From the NCBI GenBank assembly GCA_036874045.1, contig CM072337.1, positions 7,812,001 to 7,876,000 on the forward strand: a stretch of 64,000 bases of DNA, written 5' to 3'. Position 1 is the first letter of the stretch; each line of letters begins with the position of its first letter. This document shows positions 31,225 through 64,000 of the stretch, one piece after another. The notes beneath the pieces are model-generated. The model was not told the DNA's origin. It saw nothing but the letters and a program-made list of their open reading frames with translations, and ran no database searches. A program made the position numbers and the translations under genes. The DNA is from Cymodocea nodosa (taxonomy: Eukaryota; Streptophyta; Magnoliopsida; Alismatales; Cymodoceaceae).

Positions 31225-31240
31225 CTTCCCCCATACCTAA
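31225..31240 (-). other. Gyp-B terminal polypurine tract
   Basis: In the element sense GGTATGGGGGAAG directly precedes the 3' LTR start. A near-copy with the same upstream words lies at 32543-32565. Confidence 0.85.
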
Positions 31241-32542: not shown

Positions 32543-32580
32543 ACCTCCTCCCCATACCTACATTTTGCATTGTCCTCAAT
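32543..32580 (-). other. Internal polypurine tract of Gyp-B
   Basis: In the element sense 'attgaggacaatgcaaaa' is followed by GTAGGTATGGGGAGGAGG. A 'TTGAGGACAATG..TTTGGGGG' block is a familiar pre-LTR signature of Athila/Calypso-type elements, yet here it lies 1.3 kb inside. Its last 20 or so bases nearly repeat the terminal tract at 31225-31240. Confidence 0.6.
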
Positions 32581-39150: not shown

Positions 39151-39508
39151 AGCAAATATAATAATAAAAATATTACAAAGAATAGTTTTTCAGTTTTTTT
39201 TATAAGTTTAACCGATACTATGCTTCGGTCAGACCTAAATATTTTTTATGTTTTTATTTTTCTTTCGGTTGAACTGATACTATGTTTCGGTAAAACCAAT
39301 ATTTTTTCTGAAAATTAATATACAATTTTTTTCTAGTTTAACTGATACTATGCTTCGGTCAGACCAAAATATTTTTTTTATATTTTCTGGTCATACCGAT
39401 GGATCCAGTCAGTTGAACCGCAACTATTTTTATGTTTTATATATATTTTTAATGTTTTTTTTTATTTTTTATTTTTATATATATATAAACATAAAAACTG
39501 ATTTCTTA
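39151..39508 (-). repeat. Stem-loop repeat array after the Gyp-B pol stop
   Basis: AT-rich stretch with three copies of a hairpin-forming word, ACCGATACTATGCTTCGGT (39211-39229) and close variants at 39272-39291 and 39341-39359, spaced 62-68 bases, plus a weaker copy near 39397. ACCGA/TCGGT arms pair around a short loop. A TA-rich run lies at 39440-39490. Possible RNA structure or transcript processing signal; no gene. Confidence 0.65.
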
Positions 39509-41506: not shown

Positions 41507-43624
41507 CCCTTTTTTAGAAACAACATGCCCTAAGACTATTCCTTATTTAACCATGAAGTGACATTTTTCCCAATTTAAAACCAGATTTTTTTCCACACAG
41601 CGTTTTAATATTTGGTATAAATTGCTTAAACACACTTCATATGAGTTGCCATATACAGTAAAATCATCCATAAATATTTCTAAAAATTCATCAGTCATTC
41701 CAGTAAATATGCCCTGCACACACCTTTGAAAAGTAGCTGGTGCATTGCATAATCCGAATGGCATTCTTTTAAAAGCATAAGTTCCATTAGGATAGGTGAA
41801 AGTTGTTTTCTCTTGATCCTCTAATGCTACTGGAATTTGATTATATCCTGAATACCCGTCTAGGAAACAAAAATATTCTTGCCCTGCTAATCTTTCCAGC
41901 ATTTGATCTATAAAAGGTAAGGGAAAATGATCTTTCCTAGTCACAACATTCAGCTTTCTATAGTCTATACATACTCTCCAGCCTGATTGAATTCTAGTAG
42001 GTATCAAGTCTTGACTTTCATTCCTAATAACTGTTAATCCTGATTTCTTGGGAACTACATGGATTGGACTAACCCACGAGCTATCAGAAATCGGATATAT
42101 TATATCATTATCTAACCATTTAACTATTTCCTTCCTGACTACTTCCTTAAGGTTTGGATTTAATCTCCTCTCAGGAATTCTAACAGGTTTAGCATTCTCT
42201 TCTAAATATATGTGGTGACAACATAAAGTTGAACTTAACCCTTTTTTATCAGTCATAGTCCATCCTATTACTTCTTTATAACTTTTTATTACATCTTTTA
42301 ATTTAGCTATTTGATCCTCTTTCAAATCTGAAGCAATAATGATTGGACAGGTCCGTTTATCTTCTAGAAATATATAGGTTAATTCAGGAGGTAAATGTTT
42401 TAATTCTAAATGTTGCCCATCAGAAGCTAGAGCTCCTAATTGAACATCATCATTTTTTAAATTAATTTCTTCCTGATCTCCTTCTATATTTATGCTTTCA
42501 CTTTCTTCTAAACTTTCAGAATTGATTTGCCTATTTAATTCTTCTTGAATCACATCATCTAACATATCTCCTTCATCCTCTAAAAAGTCTATGGTATGTA
42601 AGGACATTTCTAACTCCTCAAACATTTCTGGTTTGAAAATATTTAATTGAGTATCCTCATTACCATATGCTAACTTCATTACTCCACTTTTACAATTTAT
42701 AACAGCCCCTGATGTTGCTAAAAATGGCCTTCCCAAAATTAAAGATGTATCACTATTTTTATGCTTAATTTGTTGGGAATCCAAAATTACAATATCAATA
42801 GGATATATAAAATTCTTGATTTTAATTAAGATATCCTCTATTTTTCCTCTAGGGTATCTTATACTTCTATCAGCTAATTGAATAACCGTACTAGTAGGAG
42901 TTAAGCCTTCTAATCCTAAGGATGCAAATATATCACTTGGCATAACATTTATACCTACACCTAAGTTTATTAAGGTTCTTTCTAGAATGGTATTTCCTAT
43001 GGTGCATGATATAACAGGGATTCCAGGATCAGATAACTTTTTAGGAATTTGTGGCAGAAATAGGTAACTACTTTGCTCAACTAAAAAGACCTTTCTAAGA
43101 ACTTTTCGCTCTCTTTTCTTAGTACACCAATCCTTTAGAAATTTAGCACAAGGTGGCATATTCTGCAATAGATCTAACAAAGGAATGTTAACTTGTACTT
43201 TTTCAAAAATTTCTCTAATTTTTTCTTGTTTTTCAAGAATTGTTTGTTGTAATCTTTCAGGATAGGGTGTTAAAGATTTTGATTTCAAAGACTCTTTTTC
43301 TTTCAGTTGATTTGTTTGATCATTTTTAGCTTCAATTGCAGATTCAGATTGTTCTTCAGTGATTTCTAGATTTTCAGCTATTACTTTTTCATTATCATTT
43401 TGATTTTTACTCTTGTCCACCTTCACATCATTTTCATTTTGAGTTCTTGGTGGTATATCAGTTCCAGATCTTAATGTTACACATATATCTTCCAGATTTT
43501 CATTACTTTCTTGATGTTTTTGTATATCATTTTCGTGATTATGATCTTCAATTGTTTTTAGTTTTAAAGTGCATTCTTTAAATTCTCTTACATTTGTTTT
43601 TTCTGTTTGTTGTATATTTTGCAA
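41507..43624 (-). pseudogene. Gyp-B protease and reverse transcriptase
   Basis: Open for 693 codons, ending at a TAA (CAA in Gyp-A) after 'KCHFMVK'. The aspartic protease region has 'LINLGVGINVMPSDIF', where the family usually has DLGA; the catalytic aspartate appears replaced by asparagine. The RT has 'PIHVVPKKSGLTVIRNE', 'WRVCIDYRKLN', 'FCFLDGYSGYNQIPVAL', 'MPFGLCNAPATFQRC' and the intact catalytic box 'IFMDDFTVYG'. Gyp-A lacks the protease and part of the RT by deletion. The stop at 41543-41545 would truncate the protein before RNase H. Confidence 0.93.
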
Positions 43625-44155
43625 GTTGTGCAGGTTTATAACATTATAATTTTCATTGTCCTATTGTAAAACTTGTATTTTCATTGCATTTTTGTCTAAT
43701 GCTTTTAATTTTGTTTCCAGATCATCTAATTTCATTGCATTCAATTTTTGATCAATTTTCTTTATGACTTTTTCAGTTTCGTAAATTATATCCTGTTTAG
43801 GTTCTGAATATGCCTCCTTATAGTTTAATTGGTTGACTTCTTGTTGTTGACACACAAAATATTCTAGTTTGTCTAGATTTTGCTCTATACTATGCTCTAG
43901 TCTGTCATAGCTATCCCAAACTTCAGTGTCTCTCATCATATTACACATTCTATACTGACCATCAGTTGGGTAAACTATAGGATTCTCATACTCGACTCTA
44001 TTATATTGAGGATAATTCATTTCTTGTTCATGGGATCTATCAATCTGTAAATGTCTCAATTTCAAACAATCAGAAATGTCGTGTCCTTCAGAATTGCAGA
44101 ATTCACATATGCTAATTAAAGGTTTCAGAAATCTTTGAGCATAAGCATATGCCAT
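43625..44155 (-). pseudogene. Gyp-B 5' ORF: zinc knuckle and linker without capsid
   Basis: The first ATG in frame is at 44155 (MAYAYAQRFLK); a CCHC knuckle CEFCNSEGHDISDC starts at residue 17. The rest is a charged linker ('QQQEVNQLNYKEAYSEPK'). A TAG replaces Gln near 43661, after which the frame continues into the protease part. The ATG is only about 120 bases from the primer site, so the roughly 300-residue capsid region expected here is missing; its counterpart is at 34339-35729. Gyp-A shows the same 5' arrangement. Confidence 0.88.
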
Positions 44156-44259
44156 ATTCTCAATTACAGAAGAAAACACACAACTCTGACTATTAAAATG
44201 AAACAGCTCTAACAGTTGCTTATATCTATTCAATTCAATTCAGTTCAATTCAATTCAAT

Positions 44260-44277
44260 TCCCCGGCAACGACGCCA
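44260..44277 (-). other. Gyp-B primer binding site
   Basis: TGGCGTCGTTGCCGGGGA in the element sense, 7 bases from the LTR end. It is one base from the TGGCGCCGTTGCCGGGGA site described for Athila/Cyclops-type elements (Asp tRNA). Confidence 0.9.
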
Positions 44278-44284
44278 TAAAACT

Positions 44285-46138
44285 TGTTCGTGTTTTCCCA
44301 GCACTACACTAGAAAAACATGGATTTGTTACTTCTATTTTTACTTAGTTAATTTATCTTTATGCCTATTCTTTCTTTTAGAAGTAAACAAACAACCTTTA
44401 ATACAATTTAGATATTAATTCCAATTTGAACTTTAACTACAAGTGTACAGTGTCTATTGTATCAGTGTGCAAGTACAGGTTGATCCCACAGGGAATTGCT
44501 GACGAATTTAAGAAATGTTTGATTGTGAACAATTCAAATTTATATTCAATAAGCACTCCATTGAGTTACAGTTAACTCAACGGACTAAGTTCGTTGAGTT
44601 ATGGATAACTCAACGGACTATCCTCGTGGACTTAAGTTAACTCCACGAGCTTGTCTCTTCTTTATAATACTGCTATTTACAGAGGAATTCGGCCAACCAT
44701 TGGGCAATTCCACAGATTGTAAATAACATCAATTAAGCTTTTTAATGCTAGTTAACATTGGATTTATCATTATGCAATACTAACATTCAGATGATTCAAA
44801 CAGTAACCATTAAAATCTTTAAGTTGTTTTGTACAAACCAATTTCAGTAAACTGTAAAATTAAAACTAACATAAAACAATCATAAAACTGATACAGATAA
44901 CATTAATCACGATACAACACAAACAATACAACACTCAAATACAACATACAAACATATATAAATTGTTTTTGGTATTTTTGTTTTTATGTGATGGGCGAAA
45001 TGTGAAATGTAAAGTAATTTCACTTGACAGTAAATACTTCCGACACTACTTGCAACGCGATTACACCACTGAAAATTGAACCACTTACAATTCTGTCTCC
45101 TCTCCCTATAGAATCGCGAGTCCAGAATTGCAAGATGATCTCCTCTTCAGCATACAGGCATCAACCCGAAGCCAAGGCTTAAAGCTTTACGATCTCCTGA
45201 AATATGAGTTGGTGCTTGGTGAAAATGTCTTCCCTTCCCGCGACGCGATCACTCCTCACAGTGGTTGTTAGGCACTGTGTTTGGCTCGGAATCGACCCGA
45301 CATCAGGCAAGTATCCTCATAGACCTCCGATGATTGGTGATTATGGTGGTGATACGATGGTTGGTGTGATACTTCGGAGAATCGCCGATACTGTTTGCAG
45401 AAAGTTCGGTGCTCCTCCTCTATATACACTGGCCATCCATCGATCACCCCTTTTTCTTTTTTTCTTCTTTTCTTTTATATTTCTTCAGTGGTAACTGCTT
45501 CTGCTTGAATGATCGGTTGGATTTCCTTCCTTCAGATCAACGACGATGATTTCTTTCTCCCTGCGCGATTGAATTCCTGCGTGATACGTGCGAACGTGGT
45601 TTTTCCTTCCAACTGTCTGTTCCTGCAACCGCTAGAGTGGCATATTAGAAAATATATAGTCCGTGGAGTTATAGATAACTCAACGGACTTCCTTTGTTGA
45701 TTTAAATATAAAACATGTGCAAAAATAACAACTTAAGTTTATAACGCTAACCTAACGCATTGCCTTAGTGTATTTTCATGTAACTCAACGCGTGCAGTTA
45801 TACTAACTTAACGAGATATAACGTAAGTAAATCTACCAGCTCTCAACACGTGTCAGCAGCAATTTAAACATAAAATAACATTTCGGAGAGTTACAGGTAT
45901 AACTATCCGATGCTTAGATGCATTTTCGGATACTTAAGAATTTCACAGCCTGTAATTTACCGACAGTTCATAAATGTACTAAATTAACATTAATTCCCCA
46001 AAATTAAGCAGATTCTTCAATTAAAGCATATAATAGTGCAATTATAACATAATGGCTTAATTCTCATATGATAAGCTAAATATTATGCAATTAACCATCA
46101 TTTAACCATTAATAATATGCACTTTTTCATTCTAAACA
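44285..46138 (-). repeat. Gyp-B 5' LTR
   Basis: 1854 bases, the same length and ends as the 3' LTR, a few percent different. It has palindrome clusters at 44560-44650 and 45655-45690, a TTTCGGAGAGTTA..TAACTATCCGA pair near 45883-45912, and the block shared with Cop-1 at 45714-45771 (56 of 58 identical). It is followed by the right copy of the target duplication, GGATC. Confidence 0.95.
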
Positions 46139-47339: not shown

Positions 47340-49494
47340 ATGGCTTCGTCTGGACGTTTTTCTACCCTCTCTTAGCAAGGGCAAGAATTGCGGATTCAAC
47401 GAATGGAACAAGATCTCTAGACAGGTATGGAAGATCTTTCTCCTACAAAAGCTCAACTCATTATTTCTACCGGTGAAGTGGTCATTGATATTGAGTTAGT
47501 TTATGGAACCTCAGAAATTATCACTCGTTTACTGTGTTTGGAGAAATAATTGTCTGTTCTTTGTAAATTTCATCATATTACCACCTTTGTTAAAAGTGGG
47601 AAACAGTTGAAAACCAAGAAGCCTTCCTCGAGAAAATTCACCAAACCCTCTACTGGTCATAAGAAACAGAAGACCTCGTCTACCCGTTCTTCACAGTGTA
47701 CTAAAACAGATTCTGTTGCTCCTCGGGTTTCTAAGGATTCTTCCTCGGATGATGAAGACATATTTACTGCCAAAGTTAACTCCTTAGAACCTCAATTTAA
47801 ATATGTTTATGAGGCTTATGTCAGCTAATTTTTGAGTACTTCTGAGGATATTAGGGCATCTAAGAAATGAACATTGCATATGGCCATACACTTACAAGAT
47901 ACACTAGTAAGGAGGAGAAATCAAGCTTTACTGCATAAACTCAATGAGCAACTAGGAATTAAAATTCAAGAGCCTACAGATCTTGTTTATTATCATGATT
48001 TTTCTGATATGGTAGATAAGAAGAAATCAATGGCTGAACTTGAATTCTTTTTGCCCTAGAAAGGAATTGATTTTAGGCATGTGGCTAGCAAATCATATCC
48101 TCAAATTCCTAACTTTTGTATTGGAACTTTACACCAACTTGCTCTTGGTCCTTCTCACTTGATTTCTTCATCTACTCTAGTTTTGCTTATAGTTTCCACA
48201 TCTCCCCTTCCAACTACTCAATTCACATACTCTAGGAGAAGAAAGAAAACTCTTTCCTCTCATCTGAGTTTTACCAAACCTCTGTTTGTAAATAAAGAAG
48301 ACTTCATACTTCCTCCTCCTTCATCTGATGTAGAATCTCATCCAATTCCTTCTCCTCACACTCATATGGTGATACAAGGATTGTATGCAGATTCAGGTTC
48401 TGTTTCTATTCCTCAATCTCCTCCACCTTCTGAAACCCCTCTAGTAGATGAAGATCTAGAGGTTCCAGTCAATTATTCTTCAGATATCCCTGCAAATGTA
48501 TATTATTTCAGATCTTCTACAGCTAGGGATCTCTTTTTCAATAAATATCAAGGAATGAAGATCATCTACAGCAGACCTGTAAATTTTCAAGGAATGGATT
48601 CAATTCATAGTCTGCTCACTCATCAAGGGCTTTTAGGTCATATTTCTTCTCCATCAGGGTTATCCATTTTTGAAGACCTAATTCCCCTTTTCTACTCAAA
48701 TCTTGAGATTTTTCCACATTTTTTACTCCTGCACCTACAACATCAAACAATAAGGATTGATGGAGAATTTTTGGAGACTCTTTTTGGAATACCATCTACT
48801 AGTATAAATATTGCTCTTTCTCCATCAAAATGAATAAATTGATTGGCAAAACTCCTGATAAATATTTTATGTTAGTTATGACTGCAGATCTTCATGGTTT
48901 GGCCCAGATGATTGCCACAATTCTGTCTTCCTTTATATTTAAGAAAATAGGTCATGCAGATGAATTGGAGAGGAAAGTCTACCAAACCACTTATACTGTG
49001 ATGGTGGTATCAAGGTTAACTGGGCAAAAGTAATTATTGCTTAGATTACTCATCTGTAAAGTTTTCTATTTTATGGAGTTTTCATTTATCATCTAATGAC
49101 CAGATATATTGATTTATCGGGCAAACCTTTGAAATCCGTTAAAAGAAGAGTACTACAGCTTAAGGATCTTCAGAGAATGTCCTCTTCTGATCTAGTTGAG
49201 TTGCCCCCTCCTTTTCAACCATTTGCAACTCAAAATTCAGCATCTCATTCTGCAGCAGTTTCACCTCCTACCGCACCTCCTTCAGTAGAAACTCTACCTC
49301 CTGTAGCACCTACTCCAGCTCTAGTAGCTCCATTTACAGTAGTTGACAGTTTTGATACCCTCCTAAAATAGAATGAACTTCTACTTCAACATAATCAGAT
49401 GCTTTTGGATCAAGTAGCTCATTTAGAACAACTTCTGAGGGAGAGGGATAATTTAATTCAAGATTGGTTACAGAAAAAGTCAATTGCACCTTAG
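47340..49494 (+). pseudogene. Cop-2 accessory protein ORF, broken
   Basis: Starts MASSGRFSTLS with early stops. A basic Ser/Thr/Lys-rich region follows ('KTKKPSSRKFTKPSTGHKKQ'), then linkers. The conserved domain runs from about 48490 ('VYYFRSSTARDLFFNKYQGM', 'IIYSRPVNFQGMDSIHSLL', 'LIPLFYSNLE', 'LFGIPSTS') through 'IGHADELERKVYQTTYTVM' near 48950 and 'IDLSGKPLKSVKRRVLQLKD' near 49110. A Pro/Ala-rich tail ('APPSVETLPPVAPTPALVA') and a short coiled end finish at 49494. Frame changes lie near 48830 and 49030, with at least five stops. It is homologous to the Cop-1 and Gyp-B accessory ORFs, but is the most divergent of the three. Confidence 0.72.
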
Positions 49495-49689: not shown

Positions 49690-49935
49690 TGTTAGTTCAA
49701 TTATTTATCAGTTAATTTTGATGATGAAAAATGTGTGGTTTAATTATTTCTACCATATTTTAGATGTCTTTTTATTCAAATGAATATTGGCTAACTGCTT
49801 TGTACTCAAAGTCTTTTAAATTAGATTTCGATAGGTTATTTTATCTATAGTATATTAATCGGAGAGTTAATTTATTAGTCACCAAACAAAATAGGACAAA
49901 TTGGATGGTTAAGCTTCTCTCCTAGCTTTTCGAAG
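49690..49935 (+). repeat. Cop-2 3' LTR, first 246 bases
   Basis: TGTTAGTTC.. collinear with 22407-22650, ending at 'gcttttcgaag' where Cop-1b begins. The remaining 1.47 kb of the LTR is absent from the window. Confidence 0.9.
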
Positions 49936-51590
49936 TGTTGAGTATTTTTGTTTTGATGATATGTGCTGAATGAAAATAATCATATTTGCTCAATTACTAT
50001 TGCTTGTGAAAAGAAATTAAAATCATCAATTAATACAGAAAAAGCTTACTGATATAAATACTTGTCTATATTGGATTTGAAGTTAATAACTAGTCGTTTC
50101 GTTGCATTAATTTCTCATTTAGCTAAATGTCAAGTTAACGTGTGTTTTTATTGAAAAACATGATATGTTTTAATGTTATATCTTCTGTATCATGAACAGT
50201 GCACGTTTAGACAACTCGTTAAGTTAGAGTTTTGTTTGTATAGAGGTCACATGAGAACTCATTAAGTTAGAGGCTTAAAGGTTAAAATAGGTCACGTGAT
50301 AACTCGTTAAGTTAGTGAGTAAAAGAAGAGACGAACTCGTTAAGTTAGTGTTATACACGTGGTGAAATTTTAAGTTATGAATGTTGTATTGTATCACGTG
50401 AGGTGCACATGTTTAACTCGTTAAGTTAACATAACTAAACGCGTTGAGTTGCTATATTGAACACTAAGGCAACGCGTTAGGTTAGCGTTATAAACTTAAG
50501 TTGTTATTATTTGCACGTGGTAAAATTCTTATTATAAAAACATTTGTTTATTACTGGTTCGTTGAGATATCATAACACAACGAAAATGGTTCGTTGAGTT
50601 ATCATAACACAACGGAGATGGTTCGTTGAGATAGCATAACACCACAGACTTAGTTCGTTGAGTTAGCTACAGTACTTGTCACGTGAAATGGCACATGAGG
50701 AACTCGTTAAGTTAGAAACGTTAAGTTATATATATACTTATGTTACTCGTTTAGTTAACATTAAAGTAACGACTACTTATTACACTGATGAAAAAACTTT
50801 GGATGAGAAAGTTTATTTTGTAGGAAATTTTTCAGAGATCCAAGACTAATGATTAAAGAAAATTCGAAATATAAACGTGGGTTAGAACGTGTGTTTCGAT
50901 GAAGGAAAAAGGAAAGACGTGGAGAAGTGGAAAACTGGTAGTGGTTAAACATGAAGGATATGCATGAAATGAAGATACAGTATAAAAGGCATAGAATTAT
51001 CGTTGATTAATTAATCCTTGCACACAAAAAGAAAAATCTTTTCAAGGATCAAACCATCCTTGCACACAAAAAGAAAAATCTTTTCAAGGATCAAAACATC
51101 CCTGCACACCAAAAGAAAAATCTTTTTCAGGGATCAAAAACACCTTCTCGGGGAAAATCTCTCAAGTGGAAGAAAGTTCAGTGAAGCATAAAAAGGTAAG
51201 ATTTTCGTCACTGAAGATTTGAAGTATCAGAAGAAAGCAAATTCGATGAAGCATGAAAAGACAAGTTATTCGTCATTGAAGAATTGCTGAAGAAGAAAAA
51301 GAAGAAGAAGAAAGATCTCAAACAGGGAGAAAAGTTTTAAATTCCGCAAATTAGTTTTCTCTATCTGTAGTTATGAAATTGTTTAGATGATACATGGTAT
51401 CGAAATATAATTGCATCTACAATTTCTGAGGAGAATTGAATTGTATATTGTAATTGAAACCTTGAATAAAAATGATTTTATGAAAACAATGTCTCGACTT
51501 GTTTTTGAGTTTTAAAGTTTCAATTATATTTCAGAAAATATTAAAGATACACAATTCACCCCCCCTCTTGTGTAGCCATATGATCCTACA
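49936..51590 (+). repeat. Cop-1b 5' LTR with TATA box and hairpin minisatellite
   Basis: TGTTGAGTAT..GATCCTACA. Many AACTCGTTAAGTTAG-type words fill 50210-50480, and GTTGAGTTA/GTTGAGATA words fill 50560-50670. A TATA box TATAAAAGG is at 50981-50989. Just downstream, three 42-43-base units (51016-51142) each contain CCTTG..CAAGG arms, so each can fold into a hairpin near the start of the transcript. Poly(A)-type AATAAA is at about 51465. The LTR ends with a CCCCCCC-containing pyrimidine run and CCTACA. Confidence 0.93.
51016..51142 (+). repeat. 42-base tandem hairpin units in the Cop-1b LTR
   Basis: Units at 51016-51057, 51058-51099 and 51100-51142. Each starts CCTTGCACAC or CCCTGCACAC and ends CAAGGATCAAA or CAGGGATCAAA. 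The third unit has compensating changes in both arms (CCTTG/CAAGG to CCCTG/CAGGG). The other Cop-1b LTR has the same three units (about 62607-62732); Cop-1a LTRs appear to have two. Confidence 0.85.
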
Positions 51591-51592
51591 AG

Positions 51593-51604
51593 TGGTATCA
51601 GAGC
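51593..51604 (+). other. Cop-1b primer binding site
   Basis: TGGTATCAGAGC, the exact complement of the initiator Met tRNA 3' end used by most plant copia elements, two bases after the LTR. Confidence 0.92.
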
Positions 51605-51788
51605 TTTGTTAATAATCTTTGATATAAAATCGATACCAACTTATTTAATATCATTGCTTATTCTACCTCCCTTGTTTTTAAATAGAAATTAACCTGAGCA
51701 TACGTTTAACTTTCTTGATTTAAGGCTCAAATTGTTTTAAAGTTTTTAGACTGTTTAAAATCAAATAGGTTGAAAAATCTAAGGTAAA

Positions 51789-52732
51789 ATGGCTATTGGA
51801 AATGGTAATTTTTCTTTATATGAAGGCCAAAATCTTAATCATCCTCCTTTATTTGATGGAATACATTTTGAATATTGGAAATATAGGATGACTTTTTTTC
51901 TTCAAAGTATAGATCATAAATTGTGGTTCATGATTTCTAAACCATATACTCTTTTAACTACTCCTTATAATACTTGGACAATTACTGAAAAAGAAAATGA
52001 AACTCTGAATGCTAAGGGCTTAAATATTTTATTCTGTGCATTGAGTTATGATCAGTTCAGTAAAGTGTCGGCATATAAATCTCTTATGAGGTGTGGCATA
52101 CATTAGAAGTTTCACATGAAGGTACTTCTCAAGTTAAAGAGACAAAAATAAACATGTTGATTCATAAGTATGAACTCTTTAAGATGCATGAAGACGAAAA
52201 TATTTCTGAGATGTTTTCCAGATTTCTTGATATCATAAACTCTTTAAAATGTTTAGGAAAGAATTTTGAACAGAAGGATTTGGTGAGGAAAATTGTTAGA
52301 TCCCTAAGTTCTAAATGGTCTCAGAAAGTAACATCAATTGAGGAATCACGAGATTTAAATGTTTATACTATAAATGAACTTATAAGAAATTTAACAGCTT
52401 ATGAAGTTCAATTAAATGAATCACTGAGTCACAACAAACTAAAAATGAAGAAAGAAATAGCCTTCGAAATTAATTCAGATTCTGATATATCTACTAATTC
52501 TGACGAGGATTTGATTTTGCTAACTAGGAAATTCAAGAAAGCATGGAAAGCTAGGAAACAGCAAAAGAACAAAAATGATAAACCCTCAACGTCAAAATCA
52601 TTGAATGACAAGAATTCTTCATCCAGAAAGTATGTATGTTACAACTGTAAGAAACCTGGACATCTTTCTCCAGATTGTCCTATGAGGAAAAATGAAAAGC
52701 AAAGTAAGACAAATCAGAAGAAGACGGCTTAG
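51789..52732 (+). pseudogene. Cop-1b gag
   Basis: Starts MAIGNGNFSLYEGQNLNHPP. A one-base deletion near 52082, compared with Cop-1a ('aaatctgctta' versus 'aaatctctta'), splits it into frames 51789-52106 and 52091-52732. The second part carries copia gag motifs ('YELFKMHEDENISEMFSRFL') and an intact CCHC zinc knuckle CYNCKKPGHLSPDC (about 52638-52680). A stop ends it at 52732 (TAG for CAG). One frameshift and one stop separate it from a working gag. Confidence 0.9.
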
Positions 52733-54051
52733 AAAACTTAGAAAAAGTTTTACAAGAAAAAGGCTTTGAAGGTCACTTGGGATGACACGTCTGAAGAGTC
52801 TGAATCTGAGGAATCAGCATCAAAATCTTCACATTCAGAAGGAGAACATGAGTTAGAAGACGTTGCTCATGTGTGCTTCATGGCAGATGAGTCTGAGGTA
52901 ATATCTGATCCTGAAAGTCATTCAAATTTCAACTTTGATGAATTATTATGTGCTTATCATGCATTATTACAAAAACTTAAAGTATGTAAACTGGAAAATA
53001 AGAATATTAGAAAATCTTCATCCATTATGGAAGAAGAAAATTGTTTCCTATCTACTACTTTAGAAAAGTTTAAATGTGATAATGAAAATCATGCTAGAGA
53101 TTAGCAAAAATTTAGATTTAATGAATGTATCTTGCATGAACAAATACAGAATATAAATGCTGAAAAATTAAAGATAGAATCTGAAAATGAAATGTTGAGA
53201 AACAATATAAATGAACTTGAATTAGAGATAGAAAAATTAAAACTGAGAGAGCAAGATTTAAATTCTACCTTTGAGAAATGGAATTTAAGTCAAACTAAGT
53301 TAGACAAACTAACTAGTACCCCTGCGGTGTCTTATAAATTTGGCTTAGGATTTGATTTGATTATCCTGAATATCTTGAATCTCAAGCCAATAAAGGATTT
53401 ATTAGTTGCAGTTCAAGTAAATCTAAGACTAAAATTCCTTTTATTATGAAACAAGGTAATAAATATGTAGAAGTAGGTACTTCAAGGGATGAATCATGTA
53501 GTAATAATATAAATCAATGTGATTTGTCAAATTGTACTTCTAACATGACTATAAATGTCTCTAAAAATCTTGTTTCTTGTTTTGGAAATTCAGTTTCTAA
53601 TGTTTCTAAAATTTCAGACAATTATAGTAAACTGAAAATTCAGAAACTTGAGCATGTAATTCAATACACTGGTATTAGACCAATTACTCATTTTGCATGT
53701 GATGAAACAAAAAATTCTTGTGCAGAAAAAGATTTTGTATGTATGGAAAGTGTTAATACAAGTACAAAATCTTGGTATAAACTTACAGAATTGTATAAGC
53801 ATGACCAAAATAAATTAACAACTGATAAAAATATGTTTGGTCTTGATTATACTACATCTGAAAACAAAAAGAATGATTGCAAAAGCAATAATGCTATATG
53901 TGAGTATGAAGCTAATGATAAATCAATAGTACTTACAACTAATAAGAATATAAATGATAATGTTAAACTATTTTTAAACAAAAAGAAGAAATATGCGTTT
54001 AATGAACTTGGTCCTCAACAACATTGGGTACCAAGAAAAAGTTTTTCTTAA
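52733..54051 (+). pseudogene. Cop-1b gag-to-protease linker, coiled-coil rich
   Basis: Collinear with the Cop-1a linker: an acidic Ser-rich part ('DDTSEESESEESASKSSHSE'), the coiled-coil part ('NNINELELEIEKLKLREQ') and the end 'NELGPQQHWVPRKSFS'. A TAG for TTG near 53102 and a frameshift near 53360 break it. High similarity to Cop-1a outside these breaks. Confidence 0.75.
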
Positions 54052-55620
54052 TTTGTGTTGCATGAGGAAACAACATCAAAATGGATCTTGAACAATGGAG
54101 TGTCAAGTCACATGACCGGACAAAAAAGTCTATTACAAAATTTTACAAATACCATGAAAGGAAGTGTAACATTTGGAAACAAAAGCAAAGATAAAATCAT
54201 AGGTATGGGCAATGTTCAAATAACTCCTACTTGTGTTATTTTGAATGTACTATATGTAGAAAACCTAGGATTTAATTTGTTGAGTGTCATAAAACTAACT
54301 GAAAATGGATATTATGTAGTGTTTGAAGATAATGTATGCAAAATAATTGATAAAAATACAGATGAAATTAAGTTTATTGCTAAAAGAAAAGGTTCCGTAT
54401 GTATTTTATCTTTACCTTTTGGTGGAGTTGATTTAAATTCATGTTTGCTAGCTGAAACTAGTGATGCATATCTATGGCATAGAAGGATTGGGCATATAAA
54501 TATGAGACTATTACATAAACTATTTAGAAAACAATTAGTGAGAGGTTTACCAAAGATTAAATACTCATAGAACTTTATGTGTGATGCATGTGAGTTAGGT
54601 AAACTTCACAAAAACTCTTTTAAATCCAAAACTGATATTTCAAGCAAGAGAGTCTTAGAACTTATACATATGGATCTATTTGGACCAACAAGAATCATGA
54701 GTCTTGGTGGTAAACGGTATATATTTGTTTTAGTAGATGACTTCTCTAGATACACTTGGGTATATTTTCTAGCATCTAAGACAGAAGTTTTTGAAAAATT
54801 TAAAATGTTTTGCAATTTTGTTCAAAATGAGCAAAGTGTCTCTATTCAAAAACTTAGGAGTGATCATGGAACTGAATTTGATAATGATCAAATGGATAAC
54901 TATTGTAATGAGCATGGCATTGATCACATATTTTCTTTTCCAAGAGCACCGTGTCAAAATGGTGTTGTTGAGAGAAAGAATAGATCACTTCAAGAAATGG
55001 CCAAAACTATGTTGAATGAACATAAGTTACCTCAAAATCTTTGGGCTGAAGTAGTAAATATAGCTTGTTATGTTATTAATAGAAGTCATTTAAGACCTCA
55101 TGTTAATAAAACTCCTTTTGAAATTATGTTTAATAGGGTTCCAAAAATTTCCTATATGAAACCATTTGGCTGCAAGTGTTTTATTCTTAATACTAAGGAT
55201 AAAATGGATAAATTTCAAGCCAAATCGGATGAAGGAATTTTTGTAGGTTACTCTACTAGAAGTAAAGCCTATAGAGTATATAACAAGACTTCTAGGACTA
55301 TTGAAGAAACCCTCCATGTAAGCTTCAATGAAAATTCTCTTAGAGAATCTCAATCTAAAGCTGATAATGATGATATGATCAATTTTCCAAATGAGTTAGA
55401 GATCAATAGAGAGATTGATGATTTATCTGAGAAAATCAAAAATATGAACTTAAATGATCAAACTAATGATGAAAGTGATGGACTTTAAGATGTTGATGAG
55501 AATATTGAGGAAAATAAGAGAAATTGGCGTTATTCTTCATCACATCCCATTACTCAAGTCATTGGTAATATTAATGAGGGAGTTAAAACTAGAGCTTCAG
55601 TAAATTTAAATAGTATGTGT
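54052..55620 (+). pseudogene. Cop-1b protease and integrase
   Basis: The protease motif reads 'WILNNGVSSHMTG', so the catalytic aspartate and serine (DSG) are changed to NNG; Cop-1a keeps DSG. The pre-integrase region has 'LWHRRIGHINMRLLHKL' and 'CDACELGKLHKNSF'. The integrase core has 'HMDLFGPTRIMSLGG', 'LRSDHGTEFDN' and 'NGVVERKNRS', with D-D-E complete. Stops lie near 54568 (Lys position) and 55486. The open integrase stretch 54577-55488 is the longest intact copia integrase in the window. Confidence 0.9.
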
Positions 55621-57171
55621 ATGTTTGTTTCTATGGTGGAACCAAGGAATATACAAGAAGCATTATCTGATGAAAATTGGATAGTGGCAATGCAAGAAGA
55701 ACTAAATCAATTCATCAGAAATGATGTATGGGAATTAGTTTCTCCACAAGAAAATTAGTCCATAATAGGTACAAAGTGGATCTTTAGAAACAAAACTAAC
55801 GAAACTGGTCAAACTATAAGGAATAAAGCTAGATTAGTTGCACAAGGTTATACACAGGAAGAAGGATTAGATTATGATGAAACATTTGCTCATGTGGCTA
55901 GGTTAGAAAGTATTAGAATATTATTGGCCTATGCTTGTTATATGGATTTTAAATTATATCAAATGGATGTAAAGAGTGCATTTCTAAATGGTTTAATTAA
56001 TGAAGGAGTCTATGTAAAACAACCACCTAGATTTGAAGATATTAAAAATCCTGACTTTGTGTATAAATTGAAGAAAGCCTTATATGGTTTGAAGCAAGCA
56101 CCTAGATCATGGTATGAAAGATTGTCTACTTTTTTAATAGAAAAAGGCTATATCATGGGAAAAGTGGATCATACTCTATTTATTAAGAGAGATGGTAAAG
56201 ATCAGATTGTTGTTCAAATATACGTGGATTATATAATCTATGGAGCAACCTTTGATAAGTTGATAGAAATATTCTCTGAAGAGATGACTAATCAGTTTGA
56301 TATGAGTATGATAGGAGAACTTTCATATTTTCTAGGACTTCAAATTAAGCAAATGGATAAAGGTATATTTTTAAATTAGGAAAAATATGCAGATGAAATG
56401 CTTAAGAAATTTAATTTTAATGATACAAGGATTCGAGGAACTCCTATGAGTACTACTTTAAAGTTAGATATTGATGACATAGGAAAATCTATAGATCAAA
56501 GAAAATACAAAAGTATGATTGGTTCTTTACTTTATTTGACTGCTAGTAGACCTGATATTATGTTTGCTGTGTGTGTTTGTGCTAGATTTCAATCTAATCC
56601 TAAAGAATCACACTTAATTGCAGTTAAAAGAATATTTAGATATATACAAGGAACTAAAAATTTCGGACTGTATTATTCTAAGGATAGTTCAATAGATCTT
56701 ATAGGTTATACTGATGCTGATTATGCAGGATCTAAATCTGATAGAAAGAGTACCAGTGGCACATGTCAATTATTGGGAAATAATTTGGTGTCATGGTTTA
56801 GTAAAAAGCAAAACTGTGTAGCACTTTCTACTACAGAAGCTGAATATGTTGCTGCTGCACTATGTTGCACTCAGATTCTGTGGATAAGGCAAACTTTAGA
56901 AGATTTTGGATTATCTTATGATACAACTTAGATTTATTGTGACAGTAGTTCTGCAATAAATCTTTCTAAAAATCCTGTATTACATTCAAGAGCAAAACAT
57001 ATAGAGGTTAGACATCATTTTCTAAGAGATAACGTAATTAAAGGAAAAATTAAATTAGAATTTGTGTCTAGTAAAAATCAATTAGCTGATATATTTACAA
57101 AACCTCTAGACGAAAATACATTCTGCAAGATTAGATTAAATTTAGATATTTGTAGGCTATGTGATGTGTAA
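55621..57171 (+). pseudogene. Cop-1b reverse transcriptase and RNase H
   Basis: RT has '[15 protein letters not shown]', '[17 protein letters not shown]' and a catalytic box changed to YVDYI. RNase H is well kept: 'GYTDADYAGSKSDRKSTSG', 'STTEAEYVAAALCC', 'YCDSSSAINLSKNP' and the tail 'LADIFTKPLDENTF', ending in a stop at 57169-57171. Stops occur near 55757, 56378 and 56930, all readable as CAG/CAA or Glu codons changed. A single copy of the segment duplicated in Cop-1a is present here. Confidence 0.92.
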
Positions 57172-58759
57172 AATGCTTAAACTCCACATAAAAAGATAAA
57201 TATTATTGATGATGTTGTTCACTTCATAGATATTATATACTTATTATAAATATCTAAAGTAATATCTAAACTGCTGCTTAAGATACTATGTATTTATTGT
57301 AAAATCATAGTAGTATCTTATTGATTTTAAGTAGTTTATCAATTTTAATAGTTTTTACGATTTTAAGTGGAAGTGTAAATGAAAAACATTAAATACTTCT
57401 GACATTCTGAAATATTGATTAAATGTTTTCTTTGAATCAAGGAAAATGCATATGATCATGCATAAATTTGACTTAATTGATTAAACTTGTAGAATAAGTT
57501 ATATGTAACTCATCTTAAACTGTTAATCAAAAGTATAAGCTTATTGAAACTGATTCATATTCTCAATATAATCATAGAAGTAAAAATTGTATGAGATTTG
57601 TGTTTTATTGCATCTGTATTAATGGAATACATATATACTGTGCTTAAAATGAAAAGTTCTTACAAAGTAAAAATCTTTGAGAGTTTATTGATTTGTTTGA
57701 TCACGAGCCTTTTGTACTTGAGCAGATAGGTATGTAAGGATTGTTGTCCTGAAAAAGGATTCTTTAAATCTGGCAACCTAAGGTCCTGATCAGATCTGGG
57801 ATTGTTGACTGAAAGCTCATTACACGTGTACATTAGAAAGCTCTTGTATGATTCAAGCTTTTCAAACTAACTTTTAAAGAAAATTATCAATATTTACTGT
57901 TTTGAAAAGAAAAAGTTGTTTCATTAATTACAAATATCTTTGAATCGCATATAGTTTATACCAATATGACTACTGATTTATTGAATCAACATTAGTACTT
58001 TTGAAAACGTTTATTTGAGATACATTCTTTTATTCTCCTTGAATTAATCGAATTGAGTTCAAAGTTATGTTTTGATTCATATACAGTAGGAATTGATTCT
58101 GGAAATCCTTTTTGATGATGTCAGGATAACGGAAGTCTCTAAAAAGAAAATGTAAAAGTATAGTTATACTTAACATCTATTGTCACTACAAGTATATTTT
58201 GTATTTTGATTGAATATATTTGAAGTATATTTGTAGGGGGAGCATTAACAATGTCAAAAACAGATTAATATAATTTAAAATACAAATCTTAGTTAATCTG
58301 AATTAATGTCCTCTTAAAATCTTGATGAAATAATTTAAAAAGACTAATAAACTATTTTAGATTCAAAGGACAAAATGTTCAAATAGTTTACAATGTTCTC
58401 AAGATAATGTTAAGTTTAGCATGTGTGTTGTTTTCGGAACGTTTTAGTTGGAAGCATCCGAAAATTATTTTAAGTGTACTAACTAGACGTTATGTTAGAT
58501 AAGGTAACGTGTAAAATTGCCTCTAGATAGTGTTTTACTCGTTAGGTTAGTTAACTCAACGAGTTATACTTGAATATTTCGGGTACCTTGATTGAATAAA
58601 CTTTATTCAATATTTATTTAATTTCTAAACCCGACTTATCTTCACGTTGAGTTATATGCCTAAAAACCCTATTTAAACACTTATTACATGGGGACTTAGG
58701 TTATTTGTAAACTTTGTCAAGAAAATCTTTCCCGCTTGTTGCTGTTACAACCTGTGACG
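57172..58759 (+). promoter_or_regulatory. Cop-1b post-pol noncoding module and candidate accessory promoter
   Basis: No gene. About 57190-58240 is the module shared with Gyp-B 31370-32400 and with 1932-2624. An internal purine tract GTAGGGGGAG lies at 58233-58242. Then palindromes: TTTTCGGAACG..GCATCCGAAAA (58430-58462), 'GTTAGTTAACTCAACGAG' near 58545-58563 and CACGTTGAGTTATA near 58643. A TATTTAAAC box at 58670-58678 lies about 90 bases before the ATG at 58760. Confidence 0.55.
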
Positions 58760-61027
58760 ATGGTCTCCAAGTTCTACAGAGGTCGTGGCAGAGGAAAAGG
58801 CAAAAGCAGAAGAGATGCAAAAGGAAAAGAAATAGAGAATGATGAAGTTCCACGTACTTGGTTTAAGAAAATATTTCGAGTGGACAAAAGGTTAGAAGAA
58901 CTTTATAGAGATTACTTCTTTTCTCAGGATATATTAGATAAAGTTAGACAAGAACTTCAACATACTAATGCAAGTATTAAATACATGTGTATTCGAAGTA
59001 AATATGATAGAGAATACAGAATGAAATGTGATGAGATTGCATTTTTGGAATAGTATGCAAAATATTTGGAAAAAGGTGTAGGTTCATCAAATAGAACTCC
59101 TCAAACTCCTATAAATGGTACAAGATTACATGCATTTGAGGAAGAGCATGAATTAACTATCCCTACTCCTTTATATTCAAAACAAGTAGAATCAGATATT
59201 GTTGTAGACAAAACAAAAGTTGATAGTCTTCGAAAGACTGTTGCAATAGAAAGTGCTTTAGAAGAATTAAAGCAGAAAACTTTTATGAAGCAATTTGAAA
59301 AGAAAATAGCAATACTTGAAAAGGAGAAACAGAAATGTTATAGAAGAAGGATAGTTAGAAAAATTATGTCTAAGGAAACAAAGTCTTTTGAAAAAGGAAA
59401 ATCAGATGAAAATTTATTTCCAAAGGACAATGTATGTCTAGACATTATACCTTATTGTGCATTTGATAAACTCATCAGTTCCGAACACACTGAAACTGAT
59501 GAAGATAATGAGACTTTATTTTCCCTTGCTAGAAAACTTGAGAAGAAATCCAAGTCAAATATGAGCTCAAGTTTTTCTATTAGTACAAGTCCTGATGATG
59601 CAGAAATTGACAAATCAGAGCATCAGGCACCTGACATTGAACAAGTTATTGCAGATATAATTGACAATGTTGAGGCAGTAACTTGTTCAAAGGCTGAATT
59701 GTCTGGAGTAGTAGATATTGAAAATGTTAAGACTCTAGAAGAGCTAAAAGTTAACCAGCCTTCTACGGAATCTATAGAAGCAGAGTTTGAGAATTCATAG
59801 CATGAATCAGTGGAAATATCTGTTGAACAAAATGAACAATTACAAACAGATACACCGGCTGTAGAATTTGTGGAAAAATTGTACTCTGAACATTCTATAG
59901 AGACTAAACAGATGAATGTTGAGCATATTGACAATGTTTCTAACACTGTTGAAGCTAAAGAATCAAGCTTACTTGAGCAGCTTCAAGATAATATTTTGGA
60001 AGAGGAACAACATGACATTCATTTTGAAGAAGAGGTTCCTGAAGATGAATTAATCTCTGAATCACGGCTTCAGGTATCACCTTCTTTATGTACAATATTA
60101 AAAATTCAAGGTAATGCAATTCATTTTAGATCTGAAGAAGCATTGCAGAAATACAATAATCTGATTACATGTCAGATTCTGCATGCTCGTCCCATAAACT
60201 TCAGAAATTTGATGGACATAAGAGATCTGTTTGAGTTTCAAGGCCTCATTAAATTCTTGCCAGTAGGAACGAAATGGAAGCAATACATAGAGCTTATTGC
60301 AGCTTTTTATAGCAATCTAGACAAGAATGGAAATTTTCTGAAAACTCAAATAAATGAACAGGAGTTTATATTGTCTCCTGAGTTAATTTTTGAAGTTTTA
60401 GGATTAAAGAATGAAGGTGTTGTTGTTACCAACAGATTTGACATAATAAGACAACTGGAATGGAACATTCAGTATTTATTAGAAATTCTAGATGTATATT
60501 CTGAAATGAGATTAATGGAAAATCTGAATGCAGAGGCAATGTTTATTGTAAATATATTGCATGCAAATTTATTTCAGAGAGTTGGACACAATATGGAAGT
60601 CAGCAGAAGTTGTTTATATGCAACTTATAGCTTGCTGAATAGAATTCAAATCAATTGGTTTGATGTTTTCACTTCTCAACTACAGCATATGAGTTCAAAG
60701 TTATTTTATGATGATGCTGTATGTAGACTCATTGCAAGCCAATTGAATTTATCCGACTGGCCCTCTGAAACTAAAGGCATGAGAGCATTTATTGTCAAAG
60801 ATTTGCAAAAATTCCAGGCCATGCATAAACTTCAACGACAACAACAACAACAACCTGATATAGACCATATACAACAACAACAATAAAGTTATTCAGTTCA
60901 AGCAGAACAGCAAACCCAGCTACCTCCTGACTTAGATGTAGTGCTTAACGACATCAGAAATGATATTAGGCATCTAGGAGATAAAATATGTAATGCTATA
61001 AGTGATATACTTAGGAGGGGTCGATAA
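58760..61027 (+). pseudogene. Cop-1b accessory protein ORF, nearly complete
   Basis: Best preserved copy of the shared accessory gene: one frame of 755 codons from MVSKFYRGRGRGKGKSRRD to 'AISDILRRGR', broken only by in-frame stops near 59051, 59798 and 60884. The N-terminus is an Arg/Gly/Lys tail. Then helical regions ('QFEKKIAILEKEKQK'), an acidic middle, and the conserved domain (about 60090-60800) with 'ILHARPINFRNLMDIRDLFE', 'LIAAFYSNLDKNGNF', 'VLGLKNEGV', 'VGHNMEVSRSCLYATYSLLN', 'RIQINWFDV' and 'KLFYDDAVCRL'. A CAA repeat encodes a Gln tract near 60835-60883. No signal peptide or membrane helix is visible. It may bind nucleic acid through the basic tail; that is a guess. The domain recalls the 'putative plant transposon protein' type. 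Confidence 0.8.
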
Positions 61028-61523
61028 CTGTTTTTGTTTGTTTCTGAATACAAAATGTAATATTTGTATTACTTGTTTGATTCATTGAACAATACATTTT
61101 TCTGTAAATGTGTTCAATTATTATTCTTGTTTACAGAAATCGTTGTTGTAATTCTCTTATATACATATATATATTCTCTGTAATTATCTTTTTGATTAAT
61201 GACAAAAAAGGGGAGAAATATTATAAAAAGATGATTATGATCTTAATTGCATATATATATTATAAAAGGAGATGCTATTTAAATGGTTATTGTAATTTGA
61301 CAGATGATAATTAGAAAACTGATACTTATATAATTATTGACATCTTAGAGTTTTAGTTCTGAGAGGTAAAATTTACACAAACAATAGAAATAAGCTTAAG
61401 TGAACTTAAGTCAACAAACAAGTTTGTTGAATTAAAAGTTAACTCAATGAAGGTGCTTTGTTGAGTTAAACATATTTCATAATTGATTTAATATGGTTTT
61501 GTCATCATCAAAAAGGGGGAGAT
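61028..61523 (+). other. Cop-1b 3' noncoding end with palindromes and polypurine tract
   Basis: Contains a TA-rich stretch (61158-61180), a purine-tract-like AAAAAAGGGGAGAAAT near 61205, GTTGAATTAAAAGTTAACTC and TTGTTGAGTTAA palindromic words (61425-61470), and the terminal tract AAAAAGGGGGAGAT at 61510-61523. The small open frame at 61108-61314 is not supported as a gene. Confidence 0.7.
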
Positions 61524-63180
61524 TGTTGAGTATTTTTGTTTTGATGATGTGTGCTGAATGAAAATAATCATATTTGCTCAATTACTATTGCTTGTAAAAA
61601 GAAATTAAAATCATCAATTAATATAGAAAAAGCTTACTGATATAAATACTTGTCTGTATTGGATCTGAAGTTAATAACTAGTCGTTTCGTTGCATTAATT
61701 TCTCATTTAGCTAAATGTTAAGTTAACGTGTGTTTTTATTGAAAAGTATGATATGTTTTAAAGTTATATCTTCTGTATCATGAACAGTGCACGTTTAGAC
61801 AACTCATTAAGTTAGAGTTTTGTTTGTATAGAGGTCACGTGAGAACTCGTTAAGTTAGAGGCTTAAAGGTTAAAATAGGTCACGTGATAACTCGTTAAGT
61901 TAGTGAGTAAAAGAAGAGACGAACTCGTTAAGTTAGTGTTATACACGTGGTGAAATTATAAGTTACGAATGTTGTATTGTATCACGTGAGGTGCACATGT
62001 TTAACTCGTTAAGTTAACATAACTAAACGCGTTGAGTTGCTATATTGAACACTAAGGCAACGCGTTAGGTTAGCGTTATAAACTTAAGTTGTTATTTTTT
62101 GCACATGGTAAAATTCTTATTATAAAAACATTTGTTTATTACTGGTTCGTTGAGATATCATAATACAACAGAAATGGTTCGTTGAGTTATCATAACACAA
62201 CGGAGATGGTTCGTTGAGATAGCATAACACCACAGACTTAGTTCGTTGAGTTAGCTACAGTACTTGTCACGTGAAATGGCACATGAGGAACTCGTTAAGT
62301 TAGAAACGTTAAGTTATATATATACTTATGTTTCTCGTTTAGTTAACATTAAAGTAACGACTTCTTATTACACTGATGAAAAAACTTTTGGACGAGAAAG
62401 TTTATTTTGTAGGAAATTTTTCAGAGATCCAAGACTGATGATTAAAGAAAATTTGAAATATAAACGTGGGTTAGAACGTGTGTGTTTCAATGAAGGAAAA
62501 AGGAAAGACATGGAGAAGTGGAAAATTGGTAGTGGTTAAACGTGAAGGATATGCATGAAATGAAGATACAGTATAAAAGGCATAGAATTCTCGTTGATCA
62601 ATTAATCCTTACACACAAAAAGAAAAATCTTTTCAAGGATCAAACCATCCTTGCACACAAAAAGAAAAATCTTTTCAAGGATCAAAACATCCCTGCACAC
62701 CAAAAGAAAAATCTTTTTCAGGGATCAAAAACACCTTCTCAGGGAAAATCTCTTAAGTGGAAGAAAGTTCAGTGAAGCATAAAAAGGTAAATTTTCGTCA
62801 CTAAAGATTTGAAGTATCAGAAGAAAGCAAATTCGGTGAAGCATGAAAAGACAAGTTATTCGTCACTGAAGAATTGCTGAAGAAGAAAAAGAAGAAGAAG
62901 AAAGATCTCAAACAGGGAGAAAAGTTTTAAATTCCACAAATTAGTTTTCTCTATTTGTAGTTATGAAATTGTTTAGATGATACATGGTATCGAAATATAA
63001 TTGCATCTACAATTTCTGAGGAGAATTGAATTGTATATTGTAATTGAAACCTTGAATAAAAATGATTTTATGAAAACAATGTCTCGACTTGTTTTTGAGT
63101 TTTAAAGTTTCAATTATATTTCAGAAAATATTAAAGATACACAATTCACCCCCCCTCTTGTGTAGTCATACGATCCTACA
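61524..63180 (+). repeat. Cop-1b 3' LTR
   Basis: TGTTGAGTAT..GATCCTACA, 1657 bases, close to the 5' LTR (differences are scattered single bases and two bases of length). TATA box near 62572-62579, three hairpin units near 62607-62732. The two open frames here (62264-62539 and 62542-62775) are broken in the other LTR and are not supported as genes. Confidence 0.93.
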
Positions 63181-63204
63181 AAGAGGAATGAATGCACTAA
63201 CTTG
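63181..63204 (+). other. 24-base junction segment identical to Cop-2 gag
   Basis: Every base equals 24374-24397 of Cop-2 gag. It sits exactly between the end of the Cop-1b LTR and the point where homology to Gyp-B/Gyp-A accessory sequence begins. It is either a leftover of a second Cop-2 copy into which a Cop-1 element had inserted, or filler DNA copied during break repair. Confidence 0.8.
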
Positions 63205-64000
63205 GAAAAATCATTTAGAACTTAGAACAATAAAGATCAAAGTGATTTTGTTCCATTCTGTAATACCATGAAGACAGAGATGGAGCAAAACTTCTAGGAT
63301 CAGATTGACACGATAGAATTCATCAAACAGTCAGAGGAATGTCATTCAAGGCAGAAGATCAAAAATACTACTAGAGAAAAGCAACTTGAAAAGGTAGAGG
63401 AGGATCTATTCTTTTTTACAAGAAGGCTTGTAAATTTGAATGTTAGAATACCTCAAATAATGGAAACAAGAATACGAGTAGCAATTGAAATAGCCGTAAA
63501 TAGAGAAAGAAGAATTAGGCCGAACAATGAAGTTGCCTTAGAACTTATAAGAAGGAAATCACAACTGTGATTTATAAGAAAGATAGCTGTAAAAGCGGCT
63601 GTTCAACGAGAAAAAGAGCAAGCTAAAATGTCTACAGAACTAGAGCAGCAGTTGGAACCTTCACATCAAGCTCAACTAAGAGCAAGCTGAAGTAGTTGCA
63701 GCAGCAGAACAAGCAGGACCTTCAATTCCACCACTTAGACCATTAGAAAGGGTGGAAGTTATGGGGCCATCTACTGAAGAAGATTTAAGAGAGTTTGAAA
63801 AACTGGTTCGAGTTGGGAAAAGCAAAGGAGAACTAGAAGATTTGGCAGTAGCTAAAGTACATCTGGTGTTTTGATGCAATTCACAAAAGATGGGTTGCAG
63901 AAAAGTTGAAGGCTCAATACAAAGTTAAAGTTGAACAACATCAAGAAGCCACTGTCATACCTATTATAAGAGAAGCTGAGTTTGGTCCTTTGAGACCAGC
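63205..64000 (+). pseudogene. Gyp-A accessory protein ORF, 5' part, runs off the window
   Basis: Collinear with the start of the Gyp-B accessory ORF and its leader (Gyp-B 38925 downward). The ATG is at 63268. 'QIMETRIRVAIEIAVNRERR' equals 'QIMETRIKIATEIAVSKERQ' of Gyp-B, and 'VMGPSTEEDLREFEKLVR' equals 'MMGPSTEEEIREFAEPVQ'. Stops lie near 63298 and 63568, with a frame break near 63690 and another near 63870. The plus orientation and decay level fit the Gyp-A element interrupted at 22406. About 1.45 kb between the two pieces (integrase end to accessory leader) is missing. Confidence 0.8.

Follow-up and report, generated by a model that had tools for sequence, protein, structure and literature searches.

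Additional open reading frames (ORFs) between pol and the 3′ long terminal repeat (LTR) are well known (PMC7264820), and among SIRE elements an env-like ORF of this kind, eORF-3′F, is present in 74% (PMC6317226). A large survey distinguished 19 mutually dissimilar groups of SIRE ORFs, and most of the ORFs could not be related to each other (PMC6317226), only Calypso and Cyclops-2 were reported to be alike among gypsy env-like proteins (PMC1142308), and a 2012 paper described the env-like ORFs that occur in Sireviruses and in some gypsy elements of plants as being of unknown origin (PMC3414828). Here, accessory ORFs of this type are described in a 64,000-nucleotide (nt) stretch of the Cymodocea nodosa genome (GCA_036874045.1, CM072337.1, forward strand, 7,812,001–7,876,000; hereafter the window), which contains two copia families, Cop-1 (copies Cop-1a and Cop-1b) and Cop-2, and a gypsy family (Gyp-A, Gyp-B and a third, partial copy), the three families having a homologous domain in their post-pol ORFs.

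The Cop ORFs resemble the SIRE/Sirevirus eORF-3′F in combining a copia pol with a sense ORF between pol and the 3′ LTR, and differ from that case, as presented in the sources cited, in being homologous to a gypsy ORF. MtRetro3 and LjRetro3, SIRE1-related copia elements of legumes, have env-like ORFs of 774 and 793 amino acids (aa) (PMC4093653), similar in length to the 756-aa Cop-1 protein; the cited part of that report compares them with copia env-like proteins. The sunflower Athila 14 ORF(+) shows partial similarity to PF20167 (Transposase_32) and a predicted nuclear localisation (PMC11728184). The Gyp ORF shares with it a gypsy setting, sense orientation and partial PF20167 similarity, whereas the cited sections of the Athila account state no copia link, and the copies described here remain below the PF20167 cut-off. 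A precedent is offered by bdelloid rotifers, whose ORF3 types are common to diverse retroelements, with a DEDDy-like ORF gained independently at least two times (PMC5408684); additional ORFs are likewise common to distant retroelement types there, although the part of that study cited concerns other proteins (GDSL, DEDDy) and other hosts, and not a copia–gypsy pair in a plant. Among the openly licensed papers searched, none was recognised as asserting homology between the accessory ORFs of copia and those of gypsy elements, which is weak evidence of absence. Direct and strongly supported homology of this kind, with non-coding DNA as a witness of exchange, makes the origin of env-like ORFs testable.

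A domain common to copia and gypsy accessory ORFs

As the original prediction had proposed, one domain of ~235 aa recurs in the post-pol ORFs of Cop-1, Cop-2 and Gyp-B. Full-domain comparison of naturally uninterrupted genome copies (L002 for Cop-1, with a 776-aa frame and the 756-aa protein; L011 for gypsy; L025 for Cop-2) gave 36% identity over 237 aa for Cop-1 and gypsy (E=4e-54), 36% over 218 aa for Cop-2 and gypsy (E=4e-45), and 28% over 227 aa for Cop-1 and Cop-2 (E=1e-33). The corresponding local alignment scores lay 66, 54 and 46 standard deviations (s.d.) above the shuffle mean (500 shuffles per pair). The same relationships emerge from BLASTP of the window pieces between stops, at 33% over 186 aa for Cop-1 and Gyp-B (E=7e-29), 34% over 136 aa for Cop-2 and Gyp-B (E=2e-19), and 27% over 110 aa for Cop-1 and Cop-2 (E=2e-11). 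Profile–profile comparison, suggested earlier as a check, agreed, with hhalign returning E-values of 1e-33, 5e-27 and 8e-21 between the groups and probabilities of 99.9, 99.7 and 99.3, from shallow profiles. The matched part is the C-terminal domain, and the acidic, repetitive N-terminal arm lies outside it.

The accessory ORF regions were located at the predicted places, in sense and between pol and the 3′ LTR, the arrangement of a 3′ sense additional ORF (aORF-3S, or eORF-3′F). Some details needed amendment. The region proposed for the Cop-2 ORF (47340–49494) was recovered, with the window copy split over different frames as pieces 48060–48830, 48803–49030 and 49060–49371. Gyp-A retains the N-terminal part, recognisable by matches to Gyp-B at 63350–63547 (75% nt identity) and 63716–63953 (81%), and its domain, expected inside the window, starts past the window end (L009 1569–1784). 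The predicted series of ordered shared residues holds, except that the INW anchor was not found in the Cop-2 window pieces; other Cop-2 copies (L022 and L025) read VNW there.

Family matches were sought in the whole genome assembly (374.6 Mb, 28 contigs). Accessory-gene matches number at least 113 for Cop-1, 150 for the gypsy family and 149 for Cop-2, the last including 24 units of one tandem array and one copy counted twice. With the families so widely repeated, the nest of three elements in one locus, which had been put forward as the new point, is incidental, and that claim is not borne out.

Sixty-one domain loci were chosen from those listed as having no stop over the queried part, and 25 were then excluded because, across the whole domain, they contained stops or were covered too briefly (0/20 Cop-1, 8/20 gypsy and 17/21 Cop-2). 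The remaining 36 stop-free rows, 35 of them different, formed three clean groups in a domain tree, one cluster per family. The median ratio of non-synonymous to synonymous substitution rates (dN/dS) was 0.31 for Cop-1 (20 copies, 190 pairs), 0.38 for the gypsy family (12 copies, 66 pairs) and 0.21 for Cop-2 (four rows, two of which are the same copy; five pairs). Simulated neutral evolution, in a simple scheme, gave a median of 0.69. The domain thus appears, from these sequence comparisons, to have been constrained during amplification of the elements.

Conflict with pol and DNA shared by Cop-1 and gypsy elements

Pfam matches upheld the superfamily labels, through RVT_2, rve and Retrotran_gag_2 for Cop-1, RVT_1, RNase H and rve for Gyp-B, and Retrotran_gag_2 with the copia SH3 domain for Cop-2, which was also matched by the Cop-1 reverse transcriptase (RT) and integrase. 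Cop-1 and Cop-2 are tentatively taken to be SIRE-like from their architecture, and Gyp-A and Gyp-B to be Athila-like from their pol motifs and accessory ORF type.

The relationships of the accessory domain run counter to those of pol. Between Cop-1 and Cop-2, identity is 61% for RT, 64% for integrase and 28% for the accessory domain. Between Cop-1 and Gyp-B, it is 20.9% for integrase (E=4e-8) and 36% for the accessory domain, with RT giving only a 69-residue match (E=0.024). The domain has therefore evolved faster than pol within copia and is better preserved than pol between the superfamilies, which argues strongly against common descent with pol; on this pattern of divergence, the accessory gene has very probably not descended with it. 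The original prediction of an origin by transfer between superfamilies, or by repeated capture, is supported by this conflict.

A second link, first seen in a self-comparison of the window, is a non-coding segment of ~900 nt that lies between pol and the accessory ORF in Cop-1 and, in gypsy elements, immediately precedes a polypurine-like tract and the 3′ LTR. Matches to the Cop-1b segment extend over 914 nt (76.9% identity, E=5e-176) in a gypsy copy that lies just beyond the window (in L009), 723 nt (71%) in Gyp-B and 524 nt (77%) in the third gypsy copy; the alignment score was 401, against a maximum of 32 in 60 shuffles. In all 12 loci returned for the Gyp-B segment (Gyp-B included), a 211-nt core is 88.6–93.8% identical to Cop-1 and a gypsy LTR match follows the segment, and in all six returned for the Cop-1 segment (Cop-1b included) it has the accessory ORF and a copia pol as flanks. 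At ≤1 mismatch, the genome contains 4,537 occurrences of a 30-nt stretch from the core, the reversed control giving 0. The segment may instead be a separate small transposon present in both families; its fixed place in the 12/12 and 6/6 loci speaks against recent insertions, although best matches to each family's own query cannot reveal a third setting.

The Cop-1b segment contains a donor-like site, AG|GTATGT (~57728), and an acceptor-like site, TTTGTAG (~58230–58236). The GTATGT site is kept in 5/5 aligned segment copies, of which 4/5 also retain, at the opposite end, an acceptor-like TTTG(C/T)AG. The antisense strand of the segment is open, with similar peptides, in Cop-1a (13474–13656, +) and in the gypsy copy L009 (4624–4890, +).

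The third link is a 106-nt block common to the Cop-1b and gypsy LTRs, which ends in CACGTG and has a local score of 133, the best of 60 mononucleotide shuffles reaching 34. Comparison of the Cop-1 LTR with the recognised Cop-2 terminal repeats gave no match of ≥80 nt. Sharing at the DNA level, underrated by the original prediction, links Cop-1 and the gypsy family and did not reach Cop-2 in these comparisons. Exchange has thus also taken place between these two at the level of DNA, probably more recently than that of the domain; to judge by divergence, and with rates that differ, the segment and LTR block would be the younger in exchange.

Origin and possible role of the accessory gene

The reading that we hold to be the most probable, with moderate confidence, is that one modular accessory gene, a 3′ sense additional ORF, moved between SIRE-like copia and Athila-like gypsy lineages. 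It draws on the domain homology, the conflict with pol, the signs of constraint, and the two further modules that Cop-1 and the gypsy family have in common. Possible routes of transfer are template switching, involving RNAs that were packaged together or produced by read-through, and recombination of nested copies, and the divergence of the modules is suggestive of at least two episodes of different age, an older one for the protein domain and a younger one for the non-coding segment and LTR block.

Several observations weigh against this reading, or limit it. The segment is not collinear with the accessory gene, lying before it in Cop-1 and 4.1–5.8 kb after it in gypsy elements: at least 10/40 gypsy segments lie at that distance after a listed accessory match and 0/40 before one, and at least 6/40 copia segments lie 2.1–2.6 kb before a listed match and 0/40 after one, these figures being lower bounds from the listed best matches and the first 70 of 113 copia accessory places. 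Gene and segment were therefore not moved as one unit, and any leader role of the segment cannot hold in gypsy. Cop-2 gave no match to the segment, and the domain tree, in which each group is one clean cluster, offers no indication that the coding part was exchanged recently. The evidence of constraint comes from many non-independent pairs of copies chosen as stop-free, and a single neutral pair ranged from 0.35 to 1.81 in the simulation. The partial Cop-2 frames do not show the acidic N-terminal arm, and AlphaFold2, given an alignment of seven window pieces, returned no usable model (predicted local distance difference test 39, predicted template modelling score 0.24). As the three groups cannot be rooted, two transfers and a single transfer combined with accelerated evolution in copia explain the data equally well, and capture of the domain from a shared source could also be accommodated.

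Repeated capture, by which Cop-1, Cop-2 and the gypsy family each took the domain from a common third source such as a host gene family or another transposon, is the strongest alternative, and an unlikely one. The three element families are about equally far apart, and a divergent fourth member in another setting, L026, matches all three (E=1e-30 to Cop-2, 3e-26 to gypsy and 9e-22 to Cop-1). Against the nearest Pfam family of the domain, PF20167, L026 scores 45.0 bits, exactly the gathering score of 45 that the other copies do not reach (best values 20.5 for Cop-1 in L002, 17.8 for a Gyp-B piece and 16.6 for Cop-2 in L025; 17.3 for Cop-1a and 12.8 for L022); the Cop-1b and Cop-2 window pieces and L011 had no match to PF20167. 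All three groups are thus homologous to a sequence that attains the cut-off. No host gene turned up as a source, and no search aimed at one was made. Of the six PF20167 genome matches inspected, from 14, four (L027, L029, L030 and L031) match the Gyp-B 3′ region, L028 holds a Gyp-like domain piece (68% over 102 aa), and L026 is undecided; moreover, the non-coding DNA and LTR block reveal Cop-1/gypsy sharing beyond the accessory gene. L026 adjoins a frame that is RNase H-like by eye, and is possibly a further domain carrier.

Wider searches returned no relatives, with 1386 candidates from protein databases giving none at E≤0.001, a further 7988 scored giving none, and 165 stretches of viral contigs that fit a pattern including none. 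These collections probably contain few plants, so the null result says little about distribution in plants. A search of the PDB by sequence gave four weak matches (E 0.088–0.55) that were taken as chance, and Rfam gave 0 matches on the window at gathering thresholds.

That the protein is envelope-like, a degenerate retroviral-type env allowing the elements to leave the cell, is highly unlikely, even though its position fits and such Sirevirus and Athila ORFs have traditionally been called env-like (PMC3414828, PMC1142308). The best 19-residue hydropathy values are 1.15 for Cop-1, 1.21 for Gyp, and 1.22 and 1.64 for partial Cop-2 frames. By hydropathy, the only measure used, there is no clear membrane segment in Cop-1 or Gyp, in support of the earlier view that envelope-like membrane features are lacking; the borderline 1.64 falls inside the conserved domain of one Cop-2 copy.

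Vertical descent from a gene already present in the copia–gypsy common ancestor is scarcely credible: position and orientation are the same in both superfamilies, but the pattern of divergence is reversed between the domain (28% within copia, 36% between copia and gypsy) and pol (61–64% and, for integrase, 21%), and a drastic slowing of accessory-gene evolution in old lineages would be required; it was rejected. Chance or low-complexity similarity, which the acidic, repetitive N-terminal arms of Cop-1 and Gyp might suggest, is ruled out by the whole-domain E-values, scores 46–66 s.d. above shuffles and the ordered series of common residues.

Homology across the superfamilies suggests that the gene is useful whichever RT and capsid accompany it, which narrows the possible functions. 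Each copy examined has a basic cluster (RRRK, RKKK or RRRKK), and net charge is −21 for the Cop-1 frame, −36 for the Gyp frame, and −3 and +8 for partial Cop-2 frames. The protein may be a soluble factor, with an acidic, probably disordered N-terminal arm bearing the basic cluster, followed by the conserved domain; such a factor could have a host-facing task, such as counteracting silencing or bringing particles or complementary DNA of the element to the nucleus. A function that does not depend on the type of capsid or polymerase is of a kind that could pass from one superfamily to another, whereas a partner specific to one capsid or polymerase would be difficult to exchange, and a soluble, host-facing factor is for this reason preferred, tentatively and at somewhat less than even confidence. 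In Cop-1, the segment with its donor- and acceptor-like sites may supply a leader or intron of the accessory mRNA.

More doubtful is a wider reading, in which the copia and gypsy elements of this genome have a pool of modules in common (accessory protein, non-coding segment with paired splice-like sites and LTR regulatory block), exchanged repeatedly and independently. If so, both superfamilies would be subject to the same control, the accessory protein of one might serve the other in trans, and the names copia and gypsy would denote the engine only, not the element.

Features of the window and further observations

Table 1. Positions within the window of the elements, accessory ORFs and shared modules
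Feature	Position	Strand	Basis or remark
Cop-1b copia element	49936–63181	+	LTRs 49936–51591 and 61524–63181, pair 97.3% identical over 1659 nt; copia gag/pol Pfam matches
Cop-1b integrase and RT pieces (pol yardstick)	54571–56376	+	rve, SH3, RVT_2
Gyp-B gypsy element	29371–46138	−	LTRs 29371–31224 and 44285–46138, pair 96.9% identical; target duplication GGATC; RT/RNase H/integrase Pfam matches
Gyp-B RT and RNase H/integrase pieces (pol yardstick)	39512–43660	−	RVT_1, RT_RNaseH, rve
Cop-1b accessory ORF	58760–61027	+	In-frame stops 59051, 59798, 60884; final stop 61025
Shared domain in Cop-1b (approximate limits)	60113–60820	+	Alignments
Cop-1a accessory ORF, in pieces	10288–12638	−	Domain within 10626–11537
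Gyp-B accessory ORF, in pieces	36633–38862	−	Domain ~36687–37466, one stop inside
Cop-2 accessory ORF, split over frames	48060–49371	+	Domain ~48477–49200
Gyp-A accessory ORF, N-terminal part	63205–64000	+	Domain starts beyond the window
Non-coding segment, Cop-1b, between pol and accessory ORF	57376–58273	+	Alignment; common to gypsy
Non-coding segment, Cop-1a	13032–13941	−	94.7% to Cop-1b over 910 nt
Non-coding segment, Gyp-B, directly before 3′ LTR	31225–32199	−	Alignment
Non-coding segment, third, partial gypsy copy	2118–2624	−	Alignment
LTR block, Cop-1b	50414–50519; second copy 62002–62107	+	106 nt, 85.8%, E=3e-28 to gypsy LTR
LTR block, Gyp-B 3′ LTR	30800–30904; second copy 45714–45818	−	Alignment

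Unlike Gyp-B, which is flanked by GGATC on both sides, Cop-1b is without a matching 5-bp target duplication at the limits used (CGAAG at 49931–49935 and AAGAG at 63181–63185). It sits at the Cop-2/Gyp-A joint, where later rearrangement may have taken place. The pol region of Cop-1a contains a direct tandem duplication of 245–249 nt at 14711–15204, the copies being 98% identical.

The gypsy family (29371–46138 (−), also L011–L015) has an unusual gene order, with the capsid downstream of pol: 5′ LTR, zinc-knuckle-like frame, protease, RT, RNase H, integrase, accessory ORF and gag capsid-like ORF. The zinc-knuckle-like motif was seen by eye, without a Pfam match, the protease is a weak Pfam match in L012, and the capsid-like ORF of Gyp-B (35101–35625) has a Retrotrans_gag match. 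The region 3′ of the accessory ORF is 94.5–95.5% identical in L011–L014 and 89% in L015, as far as these loci reach. Between the Gyp-B accessory and capsid ORFs and the 3′ LTR lies an F-box ORF of 389 aa (33007–34173, −), which may be a host gene carried by the family; the F-box region adjoins the non-coding segment in 10/12 gypsy loci.

The tandem array among the Cop-2 matches (G000:C8:9684760–9744640, part in L020) has a period of ~988 bp, and its units hold part of the Cop-2 accessory ORF, with an open 312-aa frame in the 24 listed units and one of 240 aa in a unit within L020. The array has the appearance of a satellite that arose from the Cop-2 accessory gene.
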